Source: a candidate division WOR-3 bacterium
GTDB lineage: Bacteria; Hydrothermota; Hydrothermia; UBA1063
Length of the DNA: 64,000 bases
Assembly (NCBI GenBank): GCA_039803545.1
Contig: JBDRYS010000003.1
Coordinates: 1-64,000, forward strand
Direction: 5' to 3'
A model generated the notes under the pieces. The model was not told where the DNA came from, made no database searches, and saw only the letters and a program-made list of their open reading frames with translations. Shown in pieces: positions 2,121 to 42,081 of this stretch (positions within the stretch are counted from its first letter, which is position 1; each line of letters opens with the position of its first letter). The translations under genes and the position numbers were made by a program.

Positions 2121-4109
2121 CTACTCAATTATCACGACCCTTTTCTTATTATATCCTTTGTCACTCTTGTAAATCAAATAGTAAACACCGCTTTTTAATT
2201 CGGATAGATCCATTACTCCATTGTGGACTTTTACCTTATCCATCAATCTACCATCAGCACTATAAAAACGCACCTCACTCAAGTTGTCATCAAACTTCAA
2301 CAACTCTCCTCTTTTCACAAAAAGAGTATTAAATTTAGACGGGCCAAATTGTTCCCCTACGCTACTGTTTATACCAAATAGGGTTGCTAAAAAGTTTTTC
2401 TTGGTCATATAGGTTCCAGAGGTTCCAACACCTTCAACGCCAAATCCAAGGAAGATGATCTTGCTTCCCGATGGATGAACCCTGTAAACACCTGCTACCG
2501 AATCTGCATCAGAGCCGGTCAACGCCCTGTAATAAAGGATGGGAAGGGACCCTAAACCTGCAACAACCTCCATCACATCCTTTGAAGTTTGGTTTGAATA
2601 GGCACCAGCACCGCCAATAACCACTGAGTCATTTGTGCTGAAAACAGTTCCTGTTCCCTTGAGTTTTCTATCACCTGTATTAGCGGCAACGAAAGTCACG
2701 CCCAAATAATCCCTCAGGAAAGACGGATTAAGGGTGTCGAAACTTTCAGCAATATTTTGACCTGAAATTATAAGGTTTTTGCCATTGTTGATCGCACTTA
2801 TAAACAGGTTGGCATCGGTGTTATCCGGCAGCCTTTGACCTGAAACGTAAAAAATTGTCCTGTAGTCGTTATACAGATAAGGTTTACCACTGTCAGCTTC
2901 TGAGAACCATTCGTAGGCAAAATTAAGAGAATCTATGAAAGGCTTCAGGTAATTTTTGAGACTATTATCGTAACTCCCATCCCATACAAGGATGGTATCG
3001 ACGCCTATCTTTATCTGAATCGTATCAACTCTCGAAAGAATGCCATCCCAGGAATAATCCAGTACCAATTTTGCATACTGTGGATTATCGAAGTCACCAA
3101 CTTGAACCTGTACCGGCACTTCAACGGTATCATTAACCGGAATAACCGAATAGTTAAACATTGTATCTAAAAGGCTCAGGTATTGACTAAGGGATCTAAT
3201 TCTTAACACTACGTTATGGGCATCGGAGAAAGGCGCCACACTGGTTAATGCAAGATTTATAATGCCATTCTCGTTTCTTTCAAATCGTCTGTTATTATTC
3301 GCATCCGAAATACCTCTAAACATGGCCTGTAAATAACCGAAATTCACGGTTACCCGGGCTTTACCGGATTGCAAAACATTCCCTGCATTCAGTGTATAAG
3401 AGCCAAGATAATCAGGTATTTGATATATCGAATCCTGTTGAACAAAGGCAGCAACATAGTAGTATGGTGCCCTTATTAGTTGGGGAATAGAGAAAGAGAA
3501 GTTGAAGATTGCCGAGTCTCCACGCCCAAGGGCTAAGCTCGTACCCGAAGCATTAGGCCACATCCCTCTTACTACGTACCTCAATATGTTCATATTTTGC
3601 CAGTTGTAAAAGATGGAATCCTCAAGGATAGCCACCCTTAGCTTAAGTTGAGAAGGGATTGGAATGGAATTATCGGAGGTCATGAAAACTTTTACTCGCG
3701 CGTTAGCAACGAGGGTATTTGGGTTGAAACTCAAAATTTCGACCTTAATGGAACACGGAGCAACCTCTTGAAAGCTCTGACGGACGTAATTATCTAAAGG
3801 TGTAAAAACTCCATCCCACCCGCCGACAATGGCTTTGTTACCGGAGACAACAGTGGTAGGATAACCAGGAACATTGTAATAAGAGGCCCTTGTAACAGAA
3901 TAAGAATGATAAAAGGGGTCCGAGGTACTGGGATGATACTTTATCACTGTAAGTGATTCACCATAAATAGATTCTAACTGCGTTATTGCCTGGGCTACAT
4001 AGGGACAGTATGGACACCAAGTTGCGGTGAAATTCTCTATTAGCACATTCTTTCTGTGCGCATGGGCAAAACTCACAATTATTAACAATACTGCCATTAA
4101 CTTTTTCAT
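2121..4109 (-). CDS. Secreted Omp28-type thioredoxin-fold protein
   Basis: 662 aa with a signal peptide, then a thioredoxin-like domain whose active site WCPYC puts cysteines at 32 and 35 (ENFTATWCPYC). This N-terminal pattern is typical of the Omp28 family of outer-membrane/secreted proteins. The middle (about 200-590) looks like beta-sandwich surface domains. The last 70 residues end FYSADGRLMDKVKV...LKSGVYYLIY, a type IX (Por) C-terminal sorting domain. The start at 4109 is chosen because GAGGGA sits 6 nt upstream and the signal peptide begins there; an in-frame ATG at 4157 would add a stretch lacking these. A TATAAT lies on the minus strand at 4131-4136. Role: probably an exported or surface thiol-disulfide protein. 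Confidence 0.85.
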   Translation of the reverse strand: MKKLMAVLLIIVSFAHAHRKNVLIENFTATWCPYCPYVAQAITQLESIYGESLTVIKYHPSTSDPFYHSYSVTRASYYNVPGYPTTVVSGNKAIVGGWDGVFTPLDNYVRQSFQEVAPCSIKVEILSFNPNTLVANARVKVFMTSDNSIPIPSQLKLRVAILEDSIFYNWQNMNILRYVVRGMWPNASGTSLALGRGDSAIFNFSFSIPQLIRAPYYYVAAFVQQDSIYQIPDYLGSYTLNAGNVLQSGKARVTVNFGYLQAMFRGISDANNNRRFERNENGIINLALTSVAPFSDAHNVVLRIRSLSQYLSLLDTMFNYSVIPVNDTVEVPVQVQVGDFDNPQYAKLVLDYSWDGILSRVDTIQIKIGVDTILVWDGSYDNSLKNYLKPFIDSLNFAYEWFSEADSGKPYLYNDYRTIFYVSGQRLPDNTDANLFISAINNGKNLIISGQNIAESFDTLNPSFLRDYLGVTFVAANTGDRKLKGTGTVFSTNDSVVIGGAGAYSNQTSKDVMEVVAGLGSLPILYYRALTGSDADSVAGVYRVHPSGSKIIFLGFGVEGVGTSGTYMTKKNFLATLFGINSSVGEQFGPSKFNTLFVKRGELLKFDDNLSEVRFYSADGRLMDKVKVHNGVMDLSELKSGVYYLIYKSDKGYNKKRVVIIE

Positions 4110-4341
4110 TCTTCCCTCTTGTTTACTAAAATTATAACAGCCAATGATAAAATTCAAAAGTTTTAAATATACTGGAATGGATCCTCACAAAAAGCGAGGA
4201 AGAAAAAAGAGAGTCGCCTTCCGGTTCTTTCGCAGGGGCGGAGGTAAATACTATTCAAGTTATCCACAATCCCAAATAGAACAAACAAAATTTCACTCCC
4301 AATTTATTGCAAAAGTAAAAATTCATAAACCGGTGGAATAG

Positions 4342-4695: not shown

Positions 4696-4821
4696 TTATT
4701 TATTACTACTCCCTTCGGGTTTTTCTTTCTTACATTTTACGAGGAAGCATCCGCAATACTTTTTGCCCCATGCACGGAGCGCTTCCTTTATATTATCCTT
4801 TGTTTTGTTGATCCACTTCAT
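4696..4821 (-). CDS. RiPP-like precursor peptide 3 (CGCFLVKC)
   Basis: 41-residue ORF. The N-terminus is M-K-W-I-N-K, and the core at residues 22-30 is Y-C-G-C-F-L-V-K-C, followed by a short Lys/Glu/Ser tail. It starts 9 nt after the stop of the outer-membrane barrel gene, with AGGGGG placed 5 nt before the ATG, so it is translated and co-transcribed with the operon. It shares both the M(K/R)xIN start and the CGCFLxxC core with two other small ORFs at 9751-9855 and 9866-9979. Three independent small frames sharing the same motifs around a SPASM maturase cannot easily be chance. Inference: substrate of the radical SAM enzyme at 8404-9702, with cysteines 23, 25 and 30 as likely modification sites. 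Confidence 0.8.
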   Translation of the reverse strand: MKWINKTKDNIKEALRAWGKKYCGCFLVKCKKEKPEGSSNK

Positions 4822-4830
4822 AAACACCCC

Positions 4831-6789
4831 CTAAAACTCCAGCTTTAATTTAACAGAAAAGCTTCTGCTTGTCATCTCATAACTTCCGCCATCCTTTCTC
4901 CATACTGCATCACCAAGGAAGAGGATCGAGAGATAATCCGTCAAATAGATGTAGCCGACATTTTTGAGATAGAGGGTCTGGTTTTGTCCGTCATCATTAT
5001 GTTCAATGTAAGGCTTCAGGATAAACCTATCCTTTAAAACAGGCACTAAACCGAAGAGCTGGAATATTGAGCTTTTCCCCTGACCATATTTTAAACTCTG
5101 GAAATTCACGCCAAGATTTAAGAGATTGAAGGGCGAAACCTTGACCTTAAAGGTCACATTATCGCTGTTTTCACTAAGATATTTCCCCTTCATAAAGGAA
5201 ATTCCTACATTGTTATAACTGGCTGGGGAATAAGATAAGGAAATCCCACCAAAGCTAAAATACCTGTCTTCATCCGGAATAAAAGTGAGGTAGTTCAATT
5301 TATCCCTCATATAGCTCAAGCTCACTCCAAAGGGACCCTTAGCACCATCTAAATTTGCATTTAAAAATCTCTCTATTAGGCTGTCATTGGAAAGGTCCCT
5401 TAACTCATCGAAGGAAAACCGGGGCTTAACAAAGGATGCCTTACCAAGGGGAATTCCATAACCACAGTCAAAGGAATATTCTCTTATATTTTCAAAATCA
5501 ATCGGGCTGAAAGGCATTATGAAATTCTGATCAATCTGCAAGAAGGAGGCTGAAGCCTCCAACCCCTTAAATTCACTTCTTCTGTAGAACCTTACATAAT
5601 ATAAGTTTGATTTTTCATCAAACCTGCGAGAAACCTGGGATTGAAAGCCAAACCCCAACTTAGGCATTACAATACCACCAAAATCAAGGGAAGCCAAGGA
5701 ATAAGAAGAGGGACTCCATACATAAAAGGTCCCCACATTAAATCCACGCACAGGTGAGAAGTTAACCTTTCCAAAGGAAAGGGTATCGTAATTTTCATCG
5801 TTCAAAAGAAAGACAATTCCATTGACCTTTTCCGTCTTTGTGTAAAACTTGGCTGCGAATTTGATGTCCTCAAAAGCCCTTGTCCAAACAAGCTGGTAAG
5901 GTAAAGAGTAGAGGTCTCTCCCTTCCATAAAGACTTCTCTTTTTTCTGGATAATAAATGGGCCTTCTTCTAAGAGAAATCTCCTTAACATCCGCTTCAAT
6001 TTCAGAAAAATCTGGCTTCAACACAATATCAAAAAGGGTCGAAGCCCCCTTTTTGAATCTGAAAGCACCGCCGAAAGCCATGCGGTTAAAATTCAAAGAA
6101 TCCTGCCTCTGCGACCAACCCCTCACATAGAAGCCCGACTTCAGTTGAAGGGCACTCCCGTAGTTGGATTCTGCCTGTAGATTTTCAAAGTTTATATTTA
6201 TCCTATGCATATGGGAAAGAGATTGGAAAGAGCCTTCAGTGTTAGAAAACTGGAACTCCCCAGCTCCAGCGATAAATCTCCCCAACTTGATACCCCATTG
6301 GTTTTTGGTATAAGAAATGCCAGAAAGGGGTATTAAAATCAAAACATCATAACCATAATTGGTAATCTGAGCCCTGGCCTCCCATTTACCATCCCATTCT
6401 TCCACATTATCTCCACCTTCAGAAAGGATAAAATCCCTCTTAGTACCCGAAGGGTTAACCTGGAAACCATAAGCGGTATTTCCATTTCCAGCTGCGTCAA
6501 GAAAAACAAGGACATAGTCGTCGGCCATAATGTCTTCCTGGTCATCCTTTTTTACCGTTGAGGAAATCTTTGTCTTTTGGAAGTTTTTAAAGTAAATTGC
6601 AAAGGTGTTACCCCCAATAATTCCCACGTTGAAGAAAGTTGATTCAGCGGGAAAACTATCTAAATTGGGGTATACTTGGTAAAGCCTTTTATCAGGTTCT
6701 GGAAGAGATGCCCTTGAGACAAACTCTTCCACCGTTGGTGTATAGATGGGTTCTATGATGAGTTTTGCGATTAGCATTAACAAAATCAT
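4831..6789 (-). CDS. CBM9-like / DUF5916 outer-membrane beta-barrel
   Basis: 652 aa. The N-terminal hydrophobic segment looks like a signal peptide. Residues about 85-205 have the CBM9-like pattern of DUF5916 proteins (DDYVLVFLDAAGNGNTAYGF, then WGIKLGRF). Residues about 255-300 carry the family block KPDFSEIEAD...YYPEKREVFMEGRDLY, and the rest is alternating aromatic beta-strands ending in Phe (KLKLEF), as in outer-membrane barrels. GGAGG lies 6 nt before the ATG. It sits 11 nt downstream of the ABC exporter and just before precursor 3. Known barrels of this class are often called putative outer-membrane receptors. In this operon I infer an outer-membrane pore or receptor for the modified peptide. 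Confidence 0.85.
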   Translation of the reverse strand: MILLMLIAKLIIEPIYTPTVEEFVSRASLPEPDKRLYQVYPNLDSFPAESTFFNVGIIGGNTFAIYFKNFQKTKISSTVKKDDQEDIMADDYVLVFLDAAGNGNTAYGFQVNPSGTKRDFILSEGGDNVEEWDGKWEARAQITNYGYDVLILIPLSGISYTKNQWGIKLGRFIAGAGEFQFSNTEGSFQSLSHMHRININFENLQAESNYGSALQLKSGFYVRGWSQRQDSLNFNRMAFGGAFRFKKGASTLFDIVLKPDFSEIEADVKEISLRRRPIYYPEKREVFMEGRDLYSLPYQLVWTRAFEDIKFAAKFYTKTEKVNGIVFLLNDENYDTLSFGKVNFSPVRGFNVGTFYVWSPSSYSLASLDFGGIVMPKLGFGFQSQVSRRFDEKSNLYYVRFYRRSEFKGLEASASFLQIDQNFIMPFSPIDFENIREYSFDCGYGIPLGKASFVKPRFSFDELRDLSNDSLIERFLNANLDGAKGPFGVSLSYMRDKLNYLTFIPDEDRYFSFGGISLSYSPASYNNVGISFMKGKYLSENSDNVTFKVKVSPFNLLNLGVNFQSLKYGQGKSSIFQLFGLVPVLKDRFILKPYIEHNDDGQNQTLYLKNVGYIYLTDYLSILFLGDAVWRKDGGSYEMTSRSFSVKLKLEF

Positions 6790-6800
6790 AAAGACCTCCT

Positions 6801-8417
6801 TTATGTTTGGTTTATGTATGATGGTTTCTCTAACTTTATAACCTCAAAGCCACTTAAGTCCACCTCCTGGGACGGTAACGCGACAATCAACCCCTTGCCT
6901 TCTGAATATTCCTTTATCAACCTCCAATAAAACTCCTTTGAATCATCATCGAGATTGGCAAGGGGTTCATCAAGTAAAATAAAATCCCTTTTACCCCTCG
7001 ATAAAGCGATAAGTAATGAGAGTTTCTGCTTTTCCCCCGCTGAAAGCTGGCTAAACTTTAGATCGTCTCTTCCCTTTAAAACTTCATTTTTAGCTATTTC
7101 CACAAGCCCGTCCCTTGCGATAAGATCCAAATTATCCTTCAGGGAGGGCAAAAGCATTGGTGGATAAAAGGAAACAGCGAATCTTTGGAAATACTCAAAC
7201 TTATCCAACTCTTTTAAATCGTATTTTCCATTGATTTTTATATCCCCTTCATCAGGTTCCAATATTCCCGTAATCACTTCAAGCAAGGTAGATTTTCCTG
7301 AACCATTAGGACCAATTATGGCATATTTTTTACCCTTTTTAAATTCAAAGGCAAAATTCGAGATAACTTCTTCATCTTCAAACTTTACGGCAATTGCCTC
7401 AAGGGAAATGGTTTCCAGTTCTCCTTCCAAGCTTTTTCCCCCTCTTTTTCCTTCCATTCCCTTAAACTCTTCAACCCTTTCTATGATACCCACAGTAGTT
7501 TGAATTTCGATAAAAATTTCAGAAAGGCTATCAATGGGAGAGGAAACATACCTCATAAGCTCCATAAAGGCTACCAATCCACCAACGGTAAGATGACCTC
7601 TAACTATTTCAATGGCACCAAGCAAAAAAACTCCAACAGGAAGAAAGTCGCTCAAAATACCGTAAAATCCTGAGTACATTCCACTCACTTCTGTCCTTTT
7701 CAATCTCAATCCTAAATAATCCCTCATCTTAGGTGCCAAAAGCCCTTTAACTTTCTCTAAAAGCCCCATGAAATTTATGAGCTTAAAACCCTTCAGCAGC
7801 TCAACGGCAGTTTCCCCAAAACGGGCTTTGTACTCTTGAAACTTCACAGAATAACCCCGAATAGCGTTTCCAAAAATCACATTTAAAAGATAGAAGACAG
7901 ATGATAGCACCAACACAAAAAGTGTAAGTTTCCAGGAAAGTTTAAGGCAGACGATAAGGCCAAAAGCAAAGATCAGGAAAATCTTAATAGCGAAGGTCAT
8001 CGTTGTGGTAAGGCTTTCCTCAAGTTCAGCGGGTTCATTAAAGACCCTTGAATAGAAGTAACCAGAGTCTTTACTCTTTATTGTTTTGTAGGGCAAGGAA
8101 TAGTAAACATTAAGTAGTTCAGAAACCAGCATTTTGTAGATTCCATTCCTCAACTTTTGGTCAATTACCTTCGAAAAGTAAAGCGTAATTTCCCTCAGAA
8201 TAACAACAACGGCAATCAAAATTGAATACAATCCTACGAGGCCAAGATTTCTCGAGGGTATAACGCGGTCTATGATTTCTTTGAAAATTAGAGGCACAGG
8301 CAGTTGTAATAAGGTTCCAATCAACAACAGGAGAAGAGAAAGGGCAAACAAACTCCCCTGGGAAAGGGTGTATTTTTTAAAATACTTTACAAAAAGTTTA
8401 AAATTATCCCATTGCAA
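6801..8417 (-). CDS. ABC exporter (fused permease-ATPase) of peptide operon
   Basis: 538 aa. Six membrane helices in residues about 20-290 are fused to an ATPase domain with Walker A GPNGSGKST (369-377), signature LSAGEKQK (458-465) and Walker B ILLDEP (catalytic Glu484). There is no N-terminal C39 peptidase domain, so it does not cleave a leader itself. Two usual residues look missing: the Q-loop Gln is replaced by Tyr418 (AVSFYPP), and the H-loop region reads IVALPSQE with no His. The start is TTG at 8417 with AAGGAG 7 nt upstream, overlapping the end of the maturase gene by 14 nt. Inference: it exports the peptide made by the neighbouring maturase. Confidence 0.88.
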   Translation of the reverse strand: MQWDNFKLFVKYFKKYTLSQGSLFALSLLLLLIGTLLQLPVPLIFKEIIDRVIPSRNLGLVGLYSILIAVVVILREITLYFSKVIDQKLRNGIYKMLVSELLNVYYSLPYKTIKSKDSGYFYSRVFNEPAELEESLTTTMTFAIKIFLIFAFGLIVCLKLSWKLTLFVLVLSSVFYLLNVIFGNAIRGYSVKFQEYKARFGETAVELLKGFKLINFMGLLEKVKGLLAPKMRDYLGLRLKRTEVSGMYSGFYGILSDFLPVGVFLLGAIEIVRGHLTVGGLVAFMELMRYVSSPIDSLSEIFIEIQTTVGIIERVEEFKGMEGKRGGKSLEGELETISLEAIAVKFEDEEVISNFAFEFKKGKKYAIIGPNGSGKSTLLEVITGILEPDEGDIKINGKYDLKELDKFEYFQRFAVSFYPPMLLPSLKDNLDLIARDGLVEIAKNEVLKGRDDLKFSQLSAGEKQKLSLLIALSRGKRDFILLDEPLANLDDDSKEFYWRLIKEYSEGKGLIVALPSQEVDLSGFEVIKLEKPSYINQT

Positions 8418-9702
8418 GACTGTGCTCCTTCAAATCGTAGATAGTTTTTAGCAAGTTTTCAAGGTTGTACCTCCACATCTCACAGCGGTTCTTACCCGTT
8501 CTTAACTTGTAAAGGGGACAACCTCCTCCACATATGGGGAGAAACTTGCAGTTATAACACTCTTTGTCTAAGATTTTCAAATTTTCCCACTTAAGGACAC
8601 TCCTGGAATCCTCCCTGTAATTATCCACATTTCCCACAGATTCCTTATCCCTTCCTACGAGATCAAAGCATTTTTTGATGGTCCCGTCGCCATCTATCAA
8701 ATAATGAAAGGGTGTAATACCTGCGCAAAAAACGTAGGAAAGTTCCGGATAAACTTCGTAGGGAAAACCGTATTTATAAAGCAATGGAACAATCTTCTCA
8801 GCATAAACTTTGCCGTATTCCTCATCGGTAAATAGATTCTCACTGGAATCCATCTTGTCCTTTTCGCCTGTGACGGGTGAAAAATAGACCTCTAAATTAT
8901 CCTTTTTAATAGACGCAAGGAGCTTTAAAAGCTCTTCAATGTAGTCTATGTTTAGTTTGTCAACATTTACCCGAATTCTAACGACAAACTGGTGAAAGGC
9001 TTCAATAACATTCTTCACATTCTCAAAGACCCTATCAAAAGTTCCGTTGCCATTCTTTAAAAATCGCCTTTTATCATGAATTTCGGGAGGTCCATCGAGG
9101 GTAATCTGAGCGGATTTCAAAGAGGCCTCTTCTATGAGCTCTCTTGCCGTTTCTACATCGAAGAGATAACCATTTGTAACAACATCTGAAGAAAATTTAA
9201 AACCAAAATCTTCACTCAAACTTTTAAAAAATCTGGCAAATTCAAGGAGTTCATCTTTAAAAAGGAGAGGCTCACCGCCATAAAAAGAGAGAGAAACCTC
9301 TTCAGGTTTAAAAAGCTCAATCCTCTCTTTGATAAATTTAAAAATCTTTCCTTTGAGCTCCTGCGTAATTTTCACAGTCTTGATTCCAGACTCAAAACAA
9401 TAGTAACAGGCAAAATTACAGGCAGTAGTAGGAACAACAGTGAAAAGAAGCTTTCGAGAGTAATACCTGCTCATGAAGAAATTCCTCAAATAGTAACCCT
9501 TTTCGTCAAATTTATTATCAACGATAAAACCAGCGTCAAGGAATTCTTGTAACTTCTTCTCGTCGTCGACTTCAGGAAATTTTTTGTAAAACTCCTCATA
9601 TTCTCTTTCCAGTAAAACAAAGTTTTTGGTCAAAATGTTGTAAAGCAAAAGTCCATCTTCATGCTGAATTTCAACGTTATAAAAATTTTTATGGTATCCC
9701 AT
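8404..9702 (-). CDS. Radical SAM/SPASM peptide maturase
   Basis: 432 aa. The radical SAM cluster motif is C95-x3-C99-x2-C102 (ACNFACYYCFESG). A C-terminal SPASM region holds C382, C385, C391, C395 and C407 (CYNCKFLPICGGGCPLYK, then CEMWRY), which bind auxiliary iron-sulfur clusters. Residues 1-85 look like a small peptide-recognition (RRE/PqqD-like) domain. Start: ATG at 9702 with GGAGG 5 nt upstream, chosen over GTG at 9708. The family makes thioether or carbon-carbon crosslinks in ribosomal peptides. The two small Cys-rich ORFs just upstream are the obvious substrates. Its Shine-Dalgarno lies in an 8-bp hairpin, so expression is probably held below that of the precursors. Confidence 0.92.
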   Translation of the reverse strand: MGYHKNFYNVEIQHEDGLLLYNILTKNFVLLEREYEEFYKKFPEVDDEKKLQEFLDAGFIVDNKFDEKGYYLRNFFMSRYYSRKLLFTVVPTTACNFACYYCFESGIKTVKITQELKGKIFKFIKERIELFKPEEVSLSFYGGEPLLFKDELLEFARFFKSLSEDFGFKFSSDVVTNGYLFDVETARELIEEASLKSAQITLDGPPEIHDKRRFLKNGNGTFDRVFENVKNVIEAFHQFVVRIRVNVDKLNIDYIEELLKLLASIKKDNLEVYFSPVTGEKDKMDSSENLFTDEEYGKVYAEKIVPLLYKYGFPYEVYPELSYVFCAGITPFHYLIDGDGTIKKCFDLVGRDKESVGNVDNYREDSRSVLKWENLKILDKECYNCKFLPICGGGCPLYKLRTGKNRCEMWRYNLENLLKTIYDLKEHSLAMG

Positions 9703-9707
9703 TTCCA

Positions 9708-9734
9708 CCTCCCTTTTATAGACCGGAAGGGAGG
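9708..9734 (-). promoter_or_regulatory. Hairpin sequestering the maturase Shine-Dalgarno
   Basis: On the minus strand CCTCCCTT pairs perfectly with AAGGGAGG (plus-strand 9727-9734 and 9708-9715) around an 11-nt loop. The 3' arm contains the GGGAGG that serves the ATG at 9702. It sits between precursor 2 and the maturase gene, so it could set a high precursor-to-enzyme ratio. Confidence 0.6.
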
Positions 9735-9750
9735 AGTTTTATGCTAAAAA

Positions 9751-9855
9751 CTAAACTTCATCTTTTCTACATTGAACCAAAAAGCACCCGCAAATGGGTG
9801 GGATTATAGGTATTATAAGGTTCGAATTTTGTACATTGTTGTTAATTACCTTCAT
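9751..9855 (-). CDS. RiPP-like precursor peptide 2 (CGCFLVQC)
   Basis: 34-residue ORF. It begins M-K-V-I-N-N, has a hydrophobic Ile/Pro stretch at 13-20, and carries I-C-G-C-F-L-V-Q-C at 21-29 with cysteines 22, 24 and 29. GGAGG is 6 nt before the ATG and overlaps the stop codon of precursor 1, so the two are translationally coupled. It lies 48 nt upstream of the maturase. The motifs are shared with the ORFs at 9866-9979 and 4696-4821, while the rest of the sequence differs. That is the pattern of paralogous substrates under selection only at the recognition start and the core. Confidence 0.85.
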   Translation of the reverse strand: MKVINNNVQNSNLIIPIIPPICGCFLVQCRKDEV

Positions 9856-9865
9856 TTTTCACCTC

Positions 9866-9979
9866 CTACTGTTGCTCCTGATTCTTTGGCGCCCTTTCAT
9901 CACAACGGGTCAGAAAGCACCCACAGAGAAAATCTATGATACTTTTTTGGAGTGTATCTTCTCTATTTATGTACCTCAT
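9866..9979 (-). CDS. RiPP-like precursor peptide 1 (CGCFLTRC)
   Basis: 37-residue ORF. It begins M-R-Y-I-N-R and carries L-C-G-C-F-L-T-R-C at 18-26 (cysteines 19, 21, 26), followed by an acidic/Gln-rich tail. GGGAGG lies 5 nt before the ATG. It is the first gene of the minus-strand peptide operon, about 85 nt below the predicted transcription start and downstream of a long leader hairpin. There is no signal peptide, so export would depend on the ABC transporter at 6801-8417. Confidence 0.85.
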   Translation of the reverse strand: MRYINREDTLQKSIIDFLCGCFLTRCDERAPKNQEQQ

Positions 9980-10011
9980 CTTTACCTCCCTTGTTTTTTT
10001 TGGCTACCCTC

Positions 10012-10057
10012 CCTTCCGGCATACCCTAATAATTGCAAAGGGTATGCCAAAGGAAGG
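10012..10057 (-). promoter_or_regulatory. Leader hairpin of the peptide operon
   Basis: GGCATACCCT (10018-10027) pairs perfectly with AGGGTATGCC (10039-10048). A further 6 bp, CCTTCC (10012-10017) with GGAAGG (10052-10057), extends it past an AAA bulge. It lies in the untranslated leader about 35-80 nt upstream of precursor 1. No U-tract follows, so it is not a terminator. mRNA stability or an operator/regulator role is inferred. Confidence 0.6.
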
Positions 10058-10071
10058 CAAAACTGTAAGTT

Positions 10072-10100
10072 ATTGTAATTTAAGGGAATGAAAATTTGAA
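10072..10100 (-). promoter_or_regulatory. Promoter of the peptide operon
   Basis: On the minus strand TTCAAA (10095-10100), 17 bp, TACAAT (10072-10077). Predicted start near 10065. A perfect 7-bp dyad GTGTGAA-N6-TTCACAC (10113-10132) lies 12 bp upstream of the -35 and looks like a binding site for a dimeric regulator. Another TATAAT occurs further upstream on the same strand. Confidence 0.5.
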
Positions 10101-10112
10101 CAATCTTTAAAG

Positions 10113-10132
10113 GTGTGAAAAAAAATTCACAC
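10113..10132. promoter_or_regulatory. Candidate operator dyad GTGTGAA-N6-TTCACAC
   Basis: A perfect inverted repeat of 7 bp with six A between the arms, just upstream of the predicted promoter of the peptide operon. The rest of 10133-10213 shows no gene. Its role as an operator is inferred from position and symmetry only. Confidence 0.45.
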
Positions 10133-10213
10133 TTGTAAAACGAGGATGTAAGTTATTAGACTTCTAATAATTATATTGCGCAAAAATTTTCAATGGTTTA
10201 CGCAAATTTTCCT

Positions 10214-10246
10214 ATAAAAAATGGGGCGACCTTACGGTCGCCCCAT
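10214..10246 (-). terminator. Intrinsic terminator of the peroxiredoxin gene
   Basis: ATGGGGCGACC (10221-10231) pairs with GGTCGCCCCAT (10236-10246) around TTAC. On the minus strand the stem is followed by a run of six U (complement of 10216-10221). It lies 23 nt after the peroxiredoxin stop and insulates the peptide operon from upstream transcription. Confidence 0.9.
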
Positions 10247-10268
10247 CAAAGAAGGGCAGCCTGCAGAA

Positions 10269-10904
10269 TCACAGTTTCTTGTGGCAGAACCACCAATCGT
10301 AACAGGTATACTCTTTGAGCCTCTTTGCTGCTGTTTCAACATCGGATGCTGGTGGCACTATAACCTCATCACCAACCAGTTCATTATTTGGCCAGTTTGC
10401 TGGCATTGCTACGCCATTCTTATCAGAAATCTGTAAAGCCTTCACCATCCTCAGTATTTCATCCATATTCCTTCCCAGTTCCTGTGGGTAGTAAAGCATT
10501 GCGCGGAGGACACCGTTCGGGTCGATTATAAACACGGCTCTTACAGTATTTGTCCCCTTAGAAGGATGAATCATCCCTAAGAGCTCTGCAATCTGACCTC
10601 TATCATCAGCTATTATAGGGAATTTTATTTCAACGCCGAGTTTCTCTTTTATCCATTCAACCCATTTGATGTGAGAGAAAACCTGATCTATGGAGAGTCC
10701 AATTAGCTCAGTGTTGAGATTTTTGAATTCATCATACCTTTTCTGGAAGGCAACAAATTCTGTGGTACATACGGGTGTGAAATCAGCAGGATGGCTGAAG
10801 AGCACGACCCATTTGCCTTTATAGTCTTCGGGGAATTTTATTTCCCCATGGGTTGTTTTTGCGGTGAATGATGGCACCTTTTCACCTAAGAGTGGCAGCC
10901 CCAT
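10269..10904 (-). CDS. Peroxiredoxin, archaeal Prx6-like
   Basis: 211 aa. The peroxidatic cysteine is C46 in DFTPVCTTE. Two C-terminal cysteines, C201 and C207 (CYDWWFC), match the arrangement in archaeal thioredoxin peroxidases such as that of Aeropyrum, where one C-terminal cysteine resolves the sulfenate. It reduces peroxides in the cytoplasm. AAGGAGG lies just upstream of the ATG. The promoter is near-consensus and a strong terminator follows, so it is a well-expressed single-gene unit. Confidence 0.95.
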
Positions 10905-10945
10905 TTTAACCTCCTTGTTTTAAATACAACTTTGTAATCATTTAA

Positions 10946-10974
10946 ATTTTATTCCTACCCGCTCGTTTTGTCAA
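10946..10974 (-). promoter_or_regulatory. Peroxiredoxin promoter
   Basis: TTGACA (10969-10974), 17 bp, TAAAAT (10946-10951) on the minus strand, giving a leader of about 35 nt with a normal Shine-Dalgarno. The rest of the gap 10975-11150 shows nothing else. Confidence 0.8.
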
Positions 10975-11152
10975 GGGGTTACCTTTTAGAAAGAATAACT
11001 TGCATAATTTACGGGAATAATTCAATGAATTAACAATCTAAAAACTATTGCTTTTTCCCGCGTTAAAGTTCGCCTCAAAGGTCAATTTATCTATATTTAA
11101 GTTTAATTGAGCCTTGCCAATGAAGAAATTCGATGCCTCTAAGATATACCAC

Positions 11153-11181
11153 GTGAAATTTCGACCCCTTTCCACTATAAT
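11153..11181 (+). promoter_or_regulatory. tRNA-Ala promoter
   Basis: TATAAT (11176-11181) 12 bp before the tRNA, with a weak -35 GTGAAA (11153-11158) at 17-bp spacing. Confidence 0.55.
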
Positions 11182-11193
11182 AATATACAAGCT

Positions 11194-11266
11194 GGGGATG
11201 TAGCTCAGCTGGGAGAGCATCGGCTTTGCAAGCCGGGGGTCAGGGGTTCGAATCCCCTCATCTCCA
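11194..11266 (+). tRNA. tRNA-Ala (TGC anticodon)
   Basis: Acceptor arm GGGGATG/CATCTCC with the G3:U70 pair that identifies tRNA-Ala. The anticodon loop is TTTGCAA (TGC) and the T-loop GGTTCGAATCC. No CCA is encoded. Its 3' end is only 2 nt from the convergent dxr stop codon, leaving no room for a separate terminator. Confidence 0.97.
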
Positions 11267-11268
11267 GT

Positions 11269-12411
11269 TTAATTTTTTATGGACTTTACAATTTCCTTGG
11301 CTTTTTCTCTTGCGTTTTTATCGTATTCTTCGAGAACTTCAAGGCTTACATCTTGAACATTACTAAAGCTATCACAGGTTTTCATGACCACTTTTTCTAT
11401 ATCTAAAAAACCAATGTATCCTTTCAAAAAGGCTCCAACAGCTACATCATTCGCTGCATTCATTACACAAGGCATAACGCCGCCGGCCATTAGCATTTCA
11501 TATGCCAGTTCTAAAAGTGGGAACCTTTTAAAATCAGGTTTATAAAATTCCAGTTCACCAATCTTAGTGAGGTCAAGGGATACGAAATCGCATTCCCATC
11601 TCTCTGGATAAGTAAGGGCATACTGAATGGGTATCCTCATATCAGGATAAGACATATGGGCTATAAAGGCGCCATCTCGTAACTTTAACATACCATGGAC
11701 AATGGCTTGAGGGTGTATTAGCACTTTTATCCTTTGAGGAGGTACATCAAAAAGCCAATAAGCTTCTATGACCTCCAATCCTTTGTTCATAAGAGTCGCT
11801 GAATCCACCGTAATCTTTTTTCCCATTGTCCAGACTGGGTGGTCTAACACATCATCAATGGTTACCCTTCTCATTTCCTCCCGAGTAAAGGTCCTGAAGG
11901 GTCCACCAGAAGCAGTTAAGATCAACTCATCCACATCCTTTTTATACTTTTCAAAAAGTTGAAACAAAGCGGAATGTTCCGAATCAATAGGAATCAGTTC
12001 ACCACTGGAACTAAGCCAGGTTTCTTTAACAATTTTTCCAAAAGAAACAAGGGTTTCTTTGTTCGCTAAAGCAACTCTTTTCCCACTTTTTAACCCATGA
12101 ATGGTTGGATAAACGCCTACATTCCCTGCTGTGGCAACGACAATAATGTCCACATCATCCCGTTCTGAAACCTCTATTAACCCTTCCTTGCCATATAGAG
12201 TCGTTACTGGGGGAGACTGAACTTTTAAATCTCCCGTTATTACAGCGACTTTAGGGCTAAACTCATTTATTATCCAGAAGTATCCATTTAAATTTTCATG
12301 GACCGAAAAGGCCACAAGTTCAAACTTGTCTCTAAACTTAGATATAACTCTTAGGGTGTTGTGCCCTATACTACCCGTGGCCCCAAAGAGGGCTATTCTA
12401 CTTCTTTTCAT
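11269..12411 (-). CDS. dxr: 1-deoxy-D-xylulose 5-phosphate reductoisomerase
   Basis: 380 aa, full length. Second step of the MEP isoprenoid pathway: NADPH-dependent conversion of DXP to MEP. Visible motifs are the NADPH-binding GATGSIG at the N-terminus, ANKETLVSFG, PIDSEHSALFQ, TASGGPFR, TVDSATLMNKGLE and IHPQAIVHG. The start overlaps the end of the TlpA-like gene by 14 nt, so the two are one transcription unit although their functions are unrelated. Confidence 0.97.
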   Translation of the reverse strand: MKRSRIALFGATGSIGHNTLRVISKFRDKFELVAFSVHENLNGYFWIINEFSPKVAVITGDLKVQSPPVTTLYGKEGLIEVSERDDVDIIVVATAGNVGVYPTIHGLKSGKRVALANKETLVSFGKIVKETWLSSSGELIPIDSEHSALFQLFEKYKKDVDELILTASGGPFRTFTREEMRRVTIDDVLDHPVWTMGKKITVDSATLMNKGLEVIEAYWLFDVPPQRIKVLIHPQAIVHGMLKLRDGAFIAHMSYPDMRIPIQYALTYPERWECDFVSLDLTKIGELEFYKPDFKRFPLLELAYEMLMAGGVMPCVMNAANDVAVGAFLKGYIGFLDIEKVVMKTCDSFSNVQDVSLEVLEEYDKNAREKAKEIVKSIKN

Positions 12412-12886
12412 CAGATAGAAGCTTCAGAATGGACTTCTCGAACTCACTCTTTGAAGCAAACCCTACTTTAATATCACTAATGTAACCGTCTCTGTCTATG
12501 ATAAAAGTGGTTGGTATGTATTGAAGCCGATAAATAGAGTTATAGCTTTCCAATATATCTCTCGTCGCCATAGCAACAGGGTAATTTATTTTATTTTTCT
12601 TGTAAAATTCTTTAACCGGATCCACACTTCTATCAACGGAAATACCAATTATCTCAATCTTCTTTCCATATTTCTTCTTTAATTCCACATACCCCGGAAT
12701 TTCCTGTCTACACGGTGGGCACCAGGTAGCCCAAAAATCGAGGATTACAACTTTACCCTTTAACTCTGACAATGTGACTTTACTACCGTCAATGGTGGTG
12801 ACAGTAAAATCAGGCGCTAACTTTTTCTGCTGAGCTGCAAGAATTCCAGCCAAGAGAAGGATCACTCCAATGCCCCTAAATTTCAT
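12398..12886 (-). CDS. TlpA/ResA-like periplasmic thiol-disulfide protein
   Basis: 162 aa with an N-terminal signal peptide, then a thioredoxin fold whose active site WCPPC has cysteines at 56 and 59. The cis-proline region (YIPTTFIIDRDG) is intact. Such proteins reduce disulfides in the periplasm, for example in cytochrome maturation, or act as general redox partners. AAAGGAGG lies just upstream of the ATG. It is the first gene before dxr and is divergent from the gene at 12945. Confidence 0.9.
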   Translation of the reverse strand: MKFRGIGVILLLAGILAAQQKKLAPDFTVTTIDGSKVTLSELKGKVVILDFWATWCPPCRQEIPGYVELKKKYGKKIEIIGISVDRSVDPVKEFYKKNKINYPVAMATRDILESYNSIYRLQYIPTTFIIDRDGYISDIKVGFASKSEFEKSILKLLSDEKK

Positions 12887-12944
12887 ACTGCCTCCTTTGA
12901 AGTGTTAAAAAGTTGTTTTATAATTTTAATGGGGATTAGAGAAA

Positions 12945-13874
12945 TTGCAAAAGCTTTTAAAGCTATTTTTTATCTGTTATTTTTTAAATGCTGGATTACT
13001 TACAGCTCAGAAGTATAGGGGCGAAATCTTCCTACTACTCAGGGACCCTGCATCGGCGGCTGAGGGAAACTCTGGCGTCTCAACCCCCCAATCCCTTGGT
13101 GCGATGTTGCTAAATCCATCCTTAGTTAATCTCACAAATTCGGGAATCTACTTTTCCCATTTTGAAATTTTTAACGGATTGATAGCATCAGAAAACCTGA
13201 GCCTCAAACTCGATGTAGGAATTGGTTCATACAAAAATGGATTCAACATATTTTATCTACACTCAGACCCTATCGAGGTAACGAGGTTGAGAGATGAAAA
13301 TCTGGGCGTAGTAGAGGGTAACATAGATGTTTCGGGGGCACACGTTTATAGGTTTTACCTCATCACCTGGATAACGGGGCAACAAATCAACAAAAACTCG
13401 TACTTCGGAACAGCAGTCAAACTATTCCGTGAAACCTTTTTCAACTACGTGGAAAACGGCGCTGGGGTTGACCTCGGTTATACAATCCTTTTGAAAGATT
13501 TAACCATAGGGATAAGCGCAAGGGATGTATTTTTCTCTGTTTTTAAAGGAAAAACTCTGGAACTTGCAAATCCTTCCTTTGGTTTGGGCTTGACAAAAAC
13601 TTCTAACAACCTGAACTGGAGTATGGAGGCTGATTTTTTCACCGATGGTCCCTATCCTGGCGCAATAATAAATATAGGAAAATTAAGTATGGACTTTAAG
13701 TTCGGCGCAGAATATAGACCAGTAGAAAACTTCGCGGTGAGATTTGGATTCTACAGGGGATACCTAAGCGCCGGTGCAGGTTTAAAATGGAAAAAGTTTG
13801 CCATTGACTATTCCCTTTCCCCCAATCCCGAACTAAATACCACTCACAAAATAGGAGCAGGAATATGCTTCTAA
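12945..13874 (+). CDS. PorV-like outer-membrane protein
   Basis: 309 aa. It starts with TTG, 20 nt after a TATAAT (12919-12924), and begins with a signal peptide ending near AGLLTAQ. The early motif RDPASAAEGNSGVSTP...AMLLNPSL resembles the N-terminal hatch of PorV/PorQ-family proteins (AGARAAALG...ALYWNPA), and the rest is repeated amphipathic strands ending in a C-terminal Phe. PorV itself is a type IX secretion partner, which fits the sorting domains elsewhere in the window, but membership is inferred from pattern only. Confidence 0.7.
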   Translation: MQKLLKLFFICYFLNAGLLTAQKYRGEIFLLLRDPASAAEGNSGVSTPQSLGAMLLNPSLVNLTNSGIYFSHFEIFNGLIASENLSLKLDVGIGSYKNGFNIFYLHSDPIEVTRLRDENLGVVEGNIDVSGAHVYRFYLITWITGQQINKNSYFGTAVKLFRETFFNYVENGAGVDLGYTILLKDLTIGISARDVFFSVFKGKTLELANPSFGLGLTKTSNNLNWSMEADFFTDGPYPGAIINIGKLSMDFKFGAEYRPVENFAVRFGFYRGYLSAGAGLKWKKFAIDYSLSPNPELNTTHKIGAGICF

Positions 13875-14440
13875 GAAAAGTACTCCATCTTTCGACGATT
13901 TTCCTTCTATTATTTCTAAAATATCTTCACACGAACAATGATAAACACGTTGGCCTCATTTTAATGCTTTCTCTGAGCACCATTGCAATGTTACTGGAAA
14001 TTGCAAGAAACCAAATACCTTCTTTTAAAAGCTTCTTTCTGAAAATTTTCTCGCCTTTGTTAAAAGAAGACGAAAAAAAAGGAAAACTCACAGGGGCATC
14101 CTTTTTAATTATCTCGATGACATTGAGCTACGCCATTTTCGAATTCAAGTATTTTTACTACGCTTCTCTTATCTCAATCCTTGTTGATGGAATAACACCT
14201 ATTATAACCTTTATAGTTTTTAGAAAAAACAACAAAGACCATCATCATCTCCTCACCTTTTTGATTTCCGCAACAATCGTTGCTTTCATAGTAAATTCTG
14301 GCCTTCCATTGATTGTCAAGTTGACTACAAGTATTGTTGTTTCTATTATAGAATACATAAACCCACCCCCCGATGATAATTTTTACGCAGAATTTTTAGG
14401 GACCTTTATAATTTATTTACTGGCAAAGATTTTCGGCTAA
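13865..14440 (+). CDS. Membrane CTP-dependent lipid kinase-like (dolichol/phytol kinase family)
   Basis: 191 aa, mostly membrane helices. N-terminal RKVLHLSTIF resembles the family's RKxxH start. LVDGITPIITF and the C-terminal EYINPPPDDNFYAEFLGTF match the E...DDN pattern of dolichol kinase/VTE5-like enzymes that phosphorylate polyprenols or diacylglycerol with CTP. It overlaps the PorV-like gene by 10 nt. A second domain of the same kind is fused to PlsY at 53359-54546. Confidence 0.6.
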   Translation: MLLRKVLHLSTIFLLLFLKYLHTNNDKHVGLILMLSLSTIAMLLEIARNQIPSFKSFFLKIFSPLLKEDEKKGKLTGASFLIISMTLSYAIFEFKYFYYASLISILVDGITPIITFIVFRKNNKDHHHLLTFLISATIVAFIVNSGLPLIVKLTTSIVVSIIEYINPPPDDNFYAEFLGTFIIYLLAKIFG

Positions 14441-14457
14441 CAAAAGGAGGAGTAGGT

Positions 14458-15649
14458 ATGAAGAAGCTTATAGCTTTATCAATTTTTGTCTCAATGCTAT
14501 ATGCCCAATCCGTCAGTGAAAAGCTACAACAGGCCAAAGTCCTTGAAGAAAGGAAAGATTTCGAAAATGCTCTATCCATTTATAAAGAGGTTTTAAACTC
14601 AAAGGAACTGGATAAGAACAAAAAATTTGAAGTTTACCTCAACATTGCGGACATAGAACTGGACAAGTTCGAAAGGCCAGACTCAGCCATTAAATACCTT
14701 CAGGCAGCAAGGAAAGATTTCACTGACGCTTATAGAAAAATGGACGAGGTGTTTTATAGACTCGGCCTCGCTTACGAGAAGCTTGGCGATTATCAGAACG
14801 CAGCCGAGGCATATCAAACCGTCGCCGTTAGATTTCAGAAGAGCAAATACCTCCCCGATGCCTTAGATGGCGTTGAGAGAGTTTTCAGAAAGAACTTCAA
14901 AGAGTATGTAGCCTTTATCGGTGATGAGCCTATTACAAGACTCGAACTGGAAAGGGAACTTGAAAACATCCCCCCCTTCGCAAGATCCCAATATGAAACA
15001 GAAGAAGGGAAGCAAAAACTTCTTAAGAATCTCATCCAGAAACATCTCCTGGTAAAAGAAGCAGAAAATAGAAAAATGTACCTCTCCTCTTCCTATCAAG
15101 AAGAAATGAAGAGGGCCCGTGAACAGGCTCTAATCAGGGCACTTTATCAGAATATTTCCCAGAACATTTCGGTAGACGAAAAGGAAATTAAGGAATATTA
15201 CGAGAAAAATAAAGATTCAAAGTACAGAATTCCCGCATCGGTTACCTTCAGGGCAATTATTGTAAATTCTAAGGAAACCGCCGACACGGTCTATAGACTT
15301 CTCAAAAAAGGCATTGACTTCGACTCGGTGTTTAACAAGTACAATACTGACGAACAGCTCAAAGCTACATCGGGATTAAAGAAGGATGTGCCGGAAAACG
15401 GCAAACCTCAGGAGTTAGTAACTGCTGTCTTAAAGATGAAAAAGGGTGAAATAAGCAAGCCAATTAAATTAGAAAAGGAAAATAAATATGCTGTAATCAG
15501 AGTCGAGGAAGAGCCTAAAAAAGCGTCTTATAGAGATTTGGGCGAAGTAAAAGACGAAATCAGGCGGAATATCCAGGCGGAGAAGACCAAAAAGGCATGG
15601 GACAGCCTCATCGATAGCTTGTGGCAAAAGTACAATGTAAAGATCGTGA

Positions 15650-15669
<20 letters not shown>
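14458..15669 (+). CDS. TPR / PpiC-type peptidyl-prolyl isomerase (SurA-like)
   Basis: 403 aa with a signal peptide (start MKKLIALS, cleavage near LYAQS) and TPR-like helices at about 20-140. From about 145 there is a SurA/PrsA-like N-domain beginning FIGDEPITRLELERELE, and from about 235 a parvulin rotamase domain with a degenerate centre. The C-terminus is a helical chaperone tail. AAAGGAGG lies close to the ATG. Role inferred: periplasmic folding of outer-membrane proteins, consistent with the many barrels here. Confidence 0.85.
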
Positions 15670-17415
<1,746 letters not shown>

Positions 17416-17426
<11 letters not shown>

Positions 17427-17925
17427 GCGTAACACCCCCCGTTAAAACCTTTTTTAAACTCTTTTTTGCACTATTCAGCCGGGACTTTACAGTCCCTAAG
17501 GGTATGTTTAATAGCTTCGAAATTTCCTCATACTGAAAGCCTTCCATGTAGTAAAGGGTTAATATTTCCCTTTCCCAATCCTTTAGCTTTTGCAAAGCCC
17601 TTTCAACTTTAATTGTATCCTCTAAATCCATTTCTTCAATAGGACCAGGATCATCGTAATCATCCTCGCTTGCGATCTCCTCAAAATAAACAGGATTAAA
17701 CTTCTTCTTTTTTCTAAAAAAGTCATTTAGATGATTAATTGCTATGCTCATTACCCACGTTTTCATAGAGCTTTCACCTTTAAACTTACCGAGATTTTTA
17801 TAAATCTTGATGAAAATTTCCTGGGTAAGGTCAACAGCTTCATCATAATCATTGATTCTCCAAAAGACATAGTTAAAAACCATCTCCTTATATTCGTTAT
17901 ACACATCATCAAACCTAATTGCCAT
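17416..17925 (-). CDS. ECF-type RNA polymerase sigma factor
   Basis: 169 aa, with only regions 2 and 4. Region 2 reads DEAVDLTQEIFIKIYKNLGK...MKTWVMSIAINHLNDFFRKKK; region 4 reads EREILTLYYMEGFQYEEISKLLNIPLGTVKSRL with its helix-turn-helix. Between them is an acidic linker. No Shine-Dalgarno precedes the ATG. It pairs with the membrane protein downstream, as sigma/anti-sigma pairs do, and would answer an envelope signal. Target promoters cannot be told from here. Confidence 0.92.
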
Positions 17926-41954: not shown

Positions 41955-41959
41955 AAAAG

Positions 41960-42060
41960 CTGGCACTGGGGGAGCTGGGTAAAAGCCCGGCTGAGAGGCC
42001 TGCCTGAAAGGCGACCCCTCGAACCTGATCCGGGTAATGCCGGCGAAGGGAAAGTGCCAG
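41960..42060 (+). promoter_or_regulatory. TPP riboswitch aptamer
   Basis: Diagnostic thi-box sequences are present: GGCTGAGAGG, GAACCTGATCCGGGTAATG and GGCGAAGGGA. P1 is a perfect 8-bp stem, CTGGCACT (41960-41967) with AGTGCCAG (42053-42060). It senses thiamine pyrophosphate and represses the thi operon. Confidence 0.98.
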
Positions 42061-42081
42061 TAACTTTCCCAATCGCTCAGC

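Follow-up and report, generated by a model that had tools for sequence, protein, structure and literature searches.

A putative Gram-negative subfamily of SPASM-modified Cys peptides encoded with a DUF5916-like barrel in a WOR-3 bacterium

A stretch of 64,000 nt from a candidate division WOR-3 bacterium (the window) contains an operon that encodes three very short peptides with a CGCFLxxC core, a radical SAM/SPASM maturase, an ABC exporter, and a DUF5916-like outer-membrane barrel. We read this operon as representing a new subfamily, in Gram-negative bacteria, of Cys peptides modified by SPASM enzymes, and the barrel makes its set of export genes unusual. Cross-linking of the peptides by the radical enzyme is probable, as is their export in the direction of the cell surface. 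The best overall explanation, to which we assign a probability of about 0.7, is that ribosomal peptides A1, A2, and B are cross-linked by the maturase and exported by way of the ABC exporter and the cognate barrel.

Three peptide genes under purifying selection surround a maturase and export genes

The minus-strand genes run from window position 9979 to 4696 in the order A1, A2, maturase, ABC exporter, barrel, and B (Table 1). Intergenic distances are about 10 to 50 nt, or the genes overlap, which implies that the operon is likely transcribed as a single mRNA, and the terminator-like hairpin sets it apart from the upstream peroxiredoxin gene. These genes bear out an earlier note on this DNA, which had described a RiPP-like operon of micro-precursors, SPASM maturase, ABC exporter, and outer-membrane barrel on one strand; the small ORFs of 34 to 41 residues that it listed, with Shine-Dalgarno sites and a shared CGCFLxxC core, are present as described and start with ATG.

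Table 1. Features of the operon and of its upstream boundary in the window.
Feature	Position	Strand	Remarks
Peptide A1	9866..9979	-	37 aa, core CGCFLTRC; type A relatives in genomes G008, G001, and G033
Peptide A2	9751..9855	-	34 aa, core CGCFLVQC; orthologue in G008 only
Radical SAM/SPASM maturase	8404..9702	-	CX3CX2C and seven SPASM Cys; best NCBIfam TIGR04463; fold nearest CteB
ABC exporter half-transporter	6801..8417	-	membrane and ATPase domains
DUF5916-like outer-membrane barrel	4831..6789	-	signal-like N-terminus, motif PDFSEIEADV...YYPEKREVFMEG, C-terminal Phe
Peptide B	4696..4821	-	41 aa, core CGCFLVKC; about 10 nt past barrel gene; type B in seven genomes including this one
Strong mRNA-leader hairpin	10000..10062	-	just upstream of A1; z -4.2
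Intrinsic-terminator-like hairpin	10220..10247	-	after peroxiredoxin gene

The maturase start was placed at the ATG at 9702, which matches the sister species (G008), in preference to a GTG at 9708. The mRNA-leader hairpin is kept in G008, where its z value is -5.8 compared to -4.2 in the window, and these two species are the only ones among the 147 genomes of the phylum to have one. An Rfam scan of the operon mRNA leader revealed no known riboswitch, and the hairpin matched no Rfam family. Far from the operon, at window positions 41958-42069, the DNA contains a TPP riboswitch (74.7 bits).

Each peptide gene is preceded by a strong Shine-Dalgarno site, AAGGGAGG for A1 (MRYINREDTLQKSIIDFLCGCFLTRCDERAPKNQEQQ), TAGGAGG for A2 (MKVINNNVQNSNLIIPIIPPICGCFLVQCRKDEV), and AGGGGGTG for B (MKWINKTKDNIKEALRAWGKKYCGCFLVKCKKEKPEGSSNK), and each peptide contains three Cys residues. 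A GTG at 4827 that appears in the ORF list is not the likely start of B. The codon pattern of the core occurs only three times in the 1.67-Mb genome of this bacterium, in A1, A2, and B. When the codon pattern for C[GA]CF[LF]xxC was searched across the 147 genomes, it fell in the cassette in seven of them, and none of about 15 other matches outside the cassette had a conserved start, ribosome site, or leader.

Selection was evaluated between the window species and the congeneric G008, whose maturases are 81% identical. Values of dN and dS were 0.14 and 3.0 for A1 and 0.44 and 2.6 for A2; for B, dN was 0.12 and dS was saturated. Codons of the CGCFL residues show synonymous changes only, with zero amino-acid change; within the core, Phe and Leu are as invariant as the three Cys. 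We conclude that A1, A2, and B are genuine genes under purifying selection. A short, conserved precursor gene under selection lies beside its putative modifying enzyme, an arrangement that is a general criterion of RiPP systems.

Within the phylum, the CGCFL peptides occur exclusively together with one maturase clade

A profile built from the orthologous maturases and run on the 147 genomes scored 759-855 bits in six genomes, and the next homologues reached at most 357 bits. The six orthologues form one clade (support 99/99). Conservation beside homologous maturases had been named beforehand as a test, and a CGCFL-type peptide is present in all six genomes, although in G002 it is located on a separate contig from the maturase, where it adjoins the terminal part of a barrel gene. 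In G005, the seventh genome with a peptide, the gene for peptide B neighbours a barrel gene that is interrupted by the contig end. In the 147 genomes, CGCFL peptides occur exclusively together with one maturase clade.

Type A peptides (MRYIN... or MKYIY...CGCFLTxC) precede the maturase, and type B peptides (M[KRE]WI[NS][KR]...C[GAS]CFLV[KE]C[RK]K) come after the barrel. The order A-rSAM-ABC-barrel-B is kept in G008, in G001, where the barrel frame is split, and in G033, a member of another family of the same class that has the whole cassette and a type B core of CSCFLVKC. The cassette order in G004 lacks A; type A has apparently decayed there and type B is intact. This nearly fixed core across genera hints at a conserved role, as a signal or a metal or envelope ligand, rather than at an arms-race bacteriocin.

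Sister cassettes carry different Cys cores

Profile searches of fetched loci showed that about 20 further maturase loci in the phylum hold sister cassettes with different Cys cores, such as those of precursors MKIIKRPVTTLDASKRTSLHKDGCCHAYRVSK, MKAIKDGVSPTRYVQISLIDILCDVDIKCECKKDNN, and MKIVNQGKTSVPLQNECPILYCGKFCFWGYRGDA. At most of these loci, small ORFs with Shine-Dalgarno sites and Cys-rich ends lie immediately before the maturase gene, or else are interspersed with or follow the other genes of the cassette, and many of the maturase genes are followed by an ABC exporter and then a barrel of the same family. The sister cassettes retain Cys, in quite different spacing, but not the Phe. A start of the form M[KR]x[ILV] is found in 21 of 29 precursors; of the control small ORFs, 9 of 101 have it, and of the long ORFs, 15 of 208. 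These counts are supportive and not independent, since the pattern was picked after the window had been seen. The isolated-oddity reading of the operon was rejected because of these sister cassettes. The operon represents one clade among paralogous cassettes that are common across the phylum.

Several of these loci have features of their own. The genome of the window bacterium contains a second cassette with core CSGRYICGGLQRCG (locus L030, G000:C4); positions 8648-17858 of this locus encode a precursor ending in ...QCSGRYICGGLQRCGVQ, two SPASM maturases, ABC ATPases, and a DUF5916-like barrel; of the two maturases, the second is almost identical to an enzyme of G007. Cassette decay is seen at L033 (4256-9965, G001:C27), where several stops break the maturase frame and the ABC gene, the barrel gene, and small ORFs rich in Cys are still open. 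In locus L095 (58-5196, G002:C379), a PqqD-like small protein is encoded separately, and the other genes are those of a divergent rSAM enzyme, an ABC protein, a barrel, and a precursor ending in CENTCIACQTAIIII.

The maturase is nearest to CteB in fold and may form a thioether cross-link

The maturase has the CX3CX2C motif and the seven-Cys SPASM domain of radical SAM/SPASM enzymes. Residues C97, C101, and C104 and C328, C347, C384, C387, C393, C397, and C409 are invariant among seven diverse sequences, and all ten of these cluster-binding Cys residues are unchanged even in comparison with distant relatives. A scan of genome contigs returned one distant homologue, and viral contigs contained distant SPASM proteins only and no barrel.

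CteB (5wgg/5why) ranks first in a PDB sequence search with the maturase and is also the top, full-length Foldseek match of a structure model (pLDDT 66, pTM 0.67); the Foldseek list includes SkfB, SuiB, and TigE as well. An RRE-rSAM-SPASM layout like that of CteB/SCIFF and further ranthipeptide systems (CteA, PapA) would be expected here; in the model, pLDDT drops under 50 for stretches of the N-terminal residues 1-74, where an RRE would lie. CteB forms a thioether in the SCIFF peptide and binds the leader via its RRE (PMC8326336). Because CteB is the nearest PDB entry in both sequence and fold, a thioether is the likeliest bond, and by this analogy we consider thioether chemistry fairly probable. 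That A1, A2, and B are substrates of the SPASM maturase is very likely. However, the system differs from CteB/SCIFF in its precursors, in a SCIFF maturase score of 65.9 bits against a cut-off of 425, and in having no known acceptor pattern: no invariant Asp, Asn, or Thr of the known ranthipeptide acceptor type is found near the core Cys residues, and each peptide has three Cys, compared to the six in about 45 residues of SCIFF/CteA.

The strongest alternative is that the maturase installs a different bond that is not ranthipeptide-like, for instance an alpha-thioether as in sactipeptides or a C-C link via the invariant Phe. Enzymes with a comparable SPASM fold, namely CteB, SkfB, SuiB, and TigE, make several bond types (PMC8326336), and the conservation of Phe and Leu along with the three Cys would fit such a bond. 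By contrast, the families nearest by sequence pair with Cys-rich peptides and the sister cassettes dispense with the Phe, so that we regard a different bond as unlikely, at perhaps one chance in a few.

Less probable still is that the operon is an ordinary Clo7bot or TIGR04463 member with nothing new about it. Clo7bot (TIGR04333/TIGR04334), as on the Paraclostridium bifermentans plasmid NZ_CP079738, is the closest named kind of system, with several tandem small Cys-rich precursors, one SPASM maturase, and ABC genes nearby. The Paraclostridium maturase is 32% identical over 97% to that of the window, and its precursors, found by a separate route, start with MKFIKKP or MKYIVKP and lie upstream of the maturase, so that leader start and multi-precursor layout are alike. 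TIGR04463 (rSAM_vs_C_rich) and CefB (Cys-every-fifth maturase) are also among the best NCBIfam scores, with nearly full-length matches. Nevertheless, the maturase is far under the curated cut-offs for TIGR04463 (254.8 of 525 bits), TIGR04334 (242.9 of 600), and CefB (232.5 of 600), as it is for the geopeptide maturase (164.8 of 400) and PapB (116.3 of 340). The precursors matched no NCBIfam or Pfam family; on the Clo7bot peptide model TIGR04333 (threshold 31 bits), A1 and a G001 homologue gave no match at E<=10, compared to 44.6, 33.8, and 27.6 bits for the Paraclostridium control precursors. Moreover, Clo7bot precursors have many spaced Cys in place of a CGCFLxxC core, the Methylomagnum partner of TIGR04463 is a long Cys-repeat protein, and the operon in the window adds an outer-membrane barrel gene followed by a peptide. 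The tree that unites the six orthologues gives no strong support to a position of their clade outside the Clo7bot/TIGR04463 branch. The family had been called undescribed, which stands for the peptides, as no curated precursor family covers them, and less so for the maturase and leader type, which are akin to Clo7bot, TIGR04463, and CefB. No papers on TIGR04463, Clo7bot, or RiPPs in WOR-3 were found in the literature searched.

Other known systems are more remote. Thuricin CD, a two-component sactibiotic, also has more than one precursor per system, but uses two radical SAM enzymes (PMC12093266), compared to the one maturase here. Darobactin and dynobactin share a radical SAM maturase and a Gram-negative setting, but have no related precursor here, and the maturase scores weakly (DynA, 93.1 bits of 450).

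Still further behind is the idea that the peptides are metal- or iron-sulfur-binding mini-proteins with CxC...C ligands, or accessory subunits of the maturase, and that the radical enzyme acts elsewhere. CxC-x4-C could hold a metal, the core is nearly invariant, and peptide B sits after the barrel gene and not after the maturase. However, the sister cassettes keep the leader-like start and the position and differ in Cys spacing, as substrates would, and Clo7bot peptides with a like leader have been annotated as the substrates of a maturase related to this one, making this idea improbable. Finally, the three reading frames are very short, as chance ORFs or non-coding repeats would be, but that origin is scarcely credible and was rejected on the strength of purifying selection on the peptides and synteny spanning more than two families of a class, together with the Shine-Dalgarno sites.

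The barrel is frequent near maturases and may serve the modified peptides

The window barrel scores 19.8 bits (E 3.6e-4) on Pfam DUF5916 (PF19313; gathering threshold 22.6), and four of six aligned barrel members match (best E 2.4e-7); these scores are borderline, and the hallmark motif is conserved. The window barrel keeps PDFSxIEADV...YYPEKRxFFMEG, which we take to be the DUF5916 hallmark. A PDB sequence search with the barrel profile gave no match, and no paper on DUF5916 was found in the literature searched.

In the order, 18 of 26 maturase genes are no more than 8 kb from a barrel, and 16 of 31 barrels are no more than 8 kb from a maturase; the expected share is around a tenth or lower. 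Among 40 genomes of the class, 36 have barrels and 14 have such maturases. DUF5916-like barrels also turn up where there is no maturase, either singly or accompanied by an ABC gene; a strict tie of the barrel to RiPP cassettes was rejected for this reason, and this distribution implies that the barrel was recruited to the cassettes and is not exclusive to them. The barrel may pass or receive the peptide, and we put an outer-membrane route for the peptides at about even odds.

No C39 peptidase domain was found in the ABC exporter, and the operon contains no leader peptidase gene. At the position where the switch histidine is expected, the ABC protein reads ALPS and a homologue (L024) reads VLHE; the usual switch His may have been lost. 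Beyond peptide B, window positions 2121-4157 encode an Omp28-like thioredoxin-fold protein that ends in a type IX secretion sorting tail and is near the Omp28-related selenoprotein model, below its cut-off.

In the preferred reading, in which the peptides are cross-linked and exported, the operon would yield ribosomal peptides A1, A2, and B, whose N-terminal leader, of the M[KRE]x[ILV]N[KR] type, would be bound by the N-terminal domain of the maturase. The auxiliary iron-sulfur clusters of the enzyme would then support intramolecular cross-links at the three Cys of C[GAS]CFLxxC, with sulfur-to-carbon thioethers as the likeliest type. The ABC exporter would carry the modified peptides to the periplasm, and the cognate DUF5916-like barrel would release or receive them at the outer membrane.

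Significance

With its precursor, maturase, and transporter genes conserved in several genera, the operon offers a defined system in which to test how radical-modified peptides transit two Gram-negative membranes, and it suggests where to look for the function of DUF5916-like barrels. Across the sister cassettes, the varied Cys cores amount to a naturally occurring series in which bond type could be compared with core sequence. Tentatively, and with the odds somewhat against it, the CGCFL peptides may be one conserved branch of a large and as yet undescribed class of RiPP cassettes in Gram-negative bacteria, with a dedicated DUF5916-like barrel for every cross-linked Cys peptide. If this is true, DUF5916-like barrels would be release ports or receptors for modified peptides.
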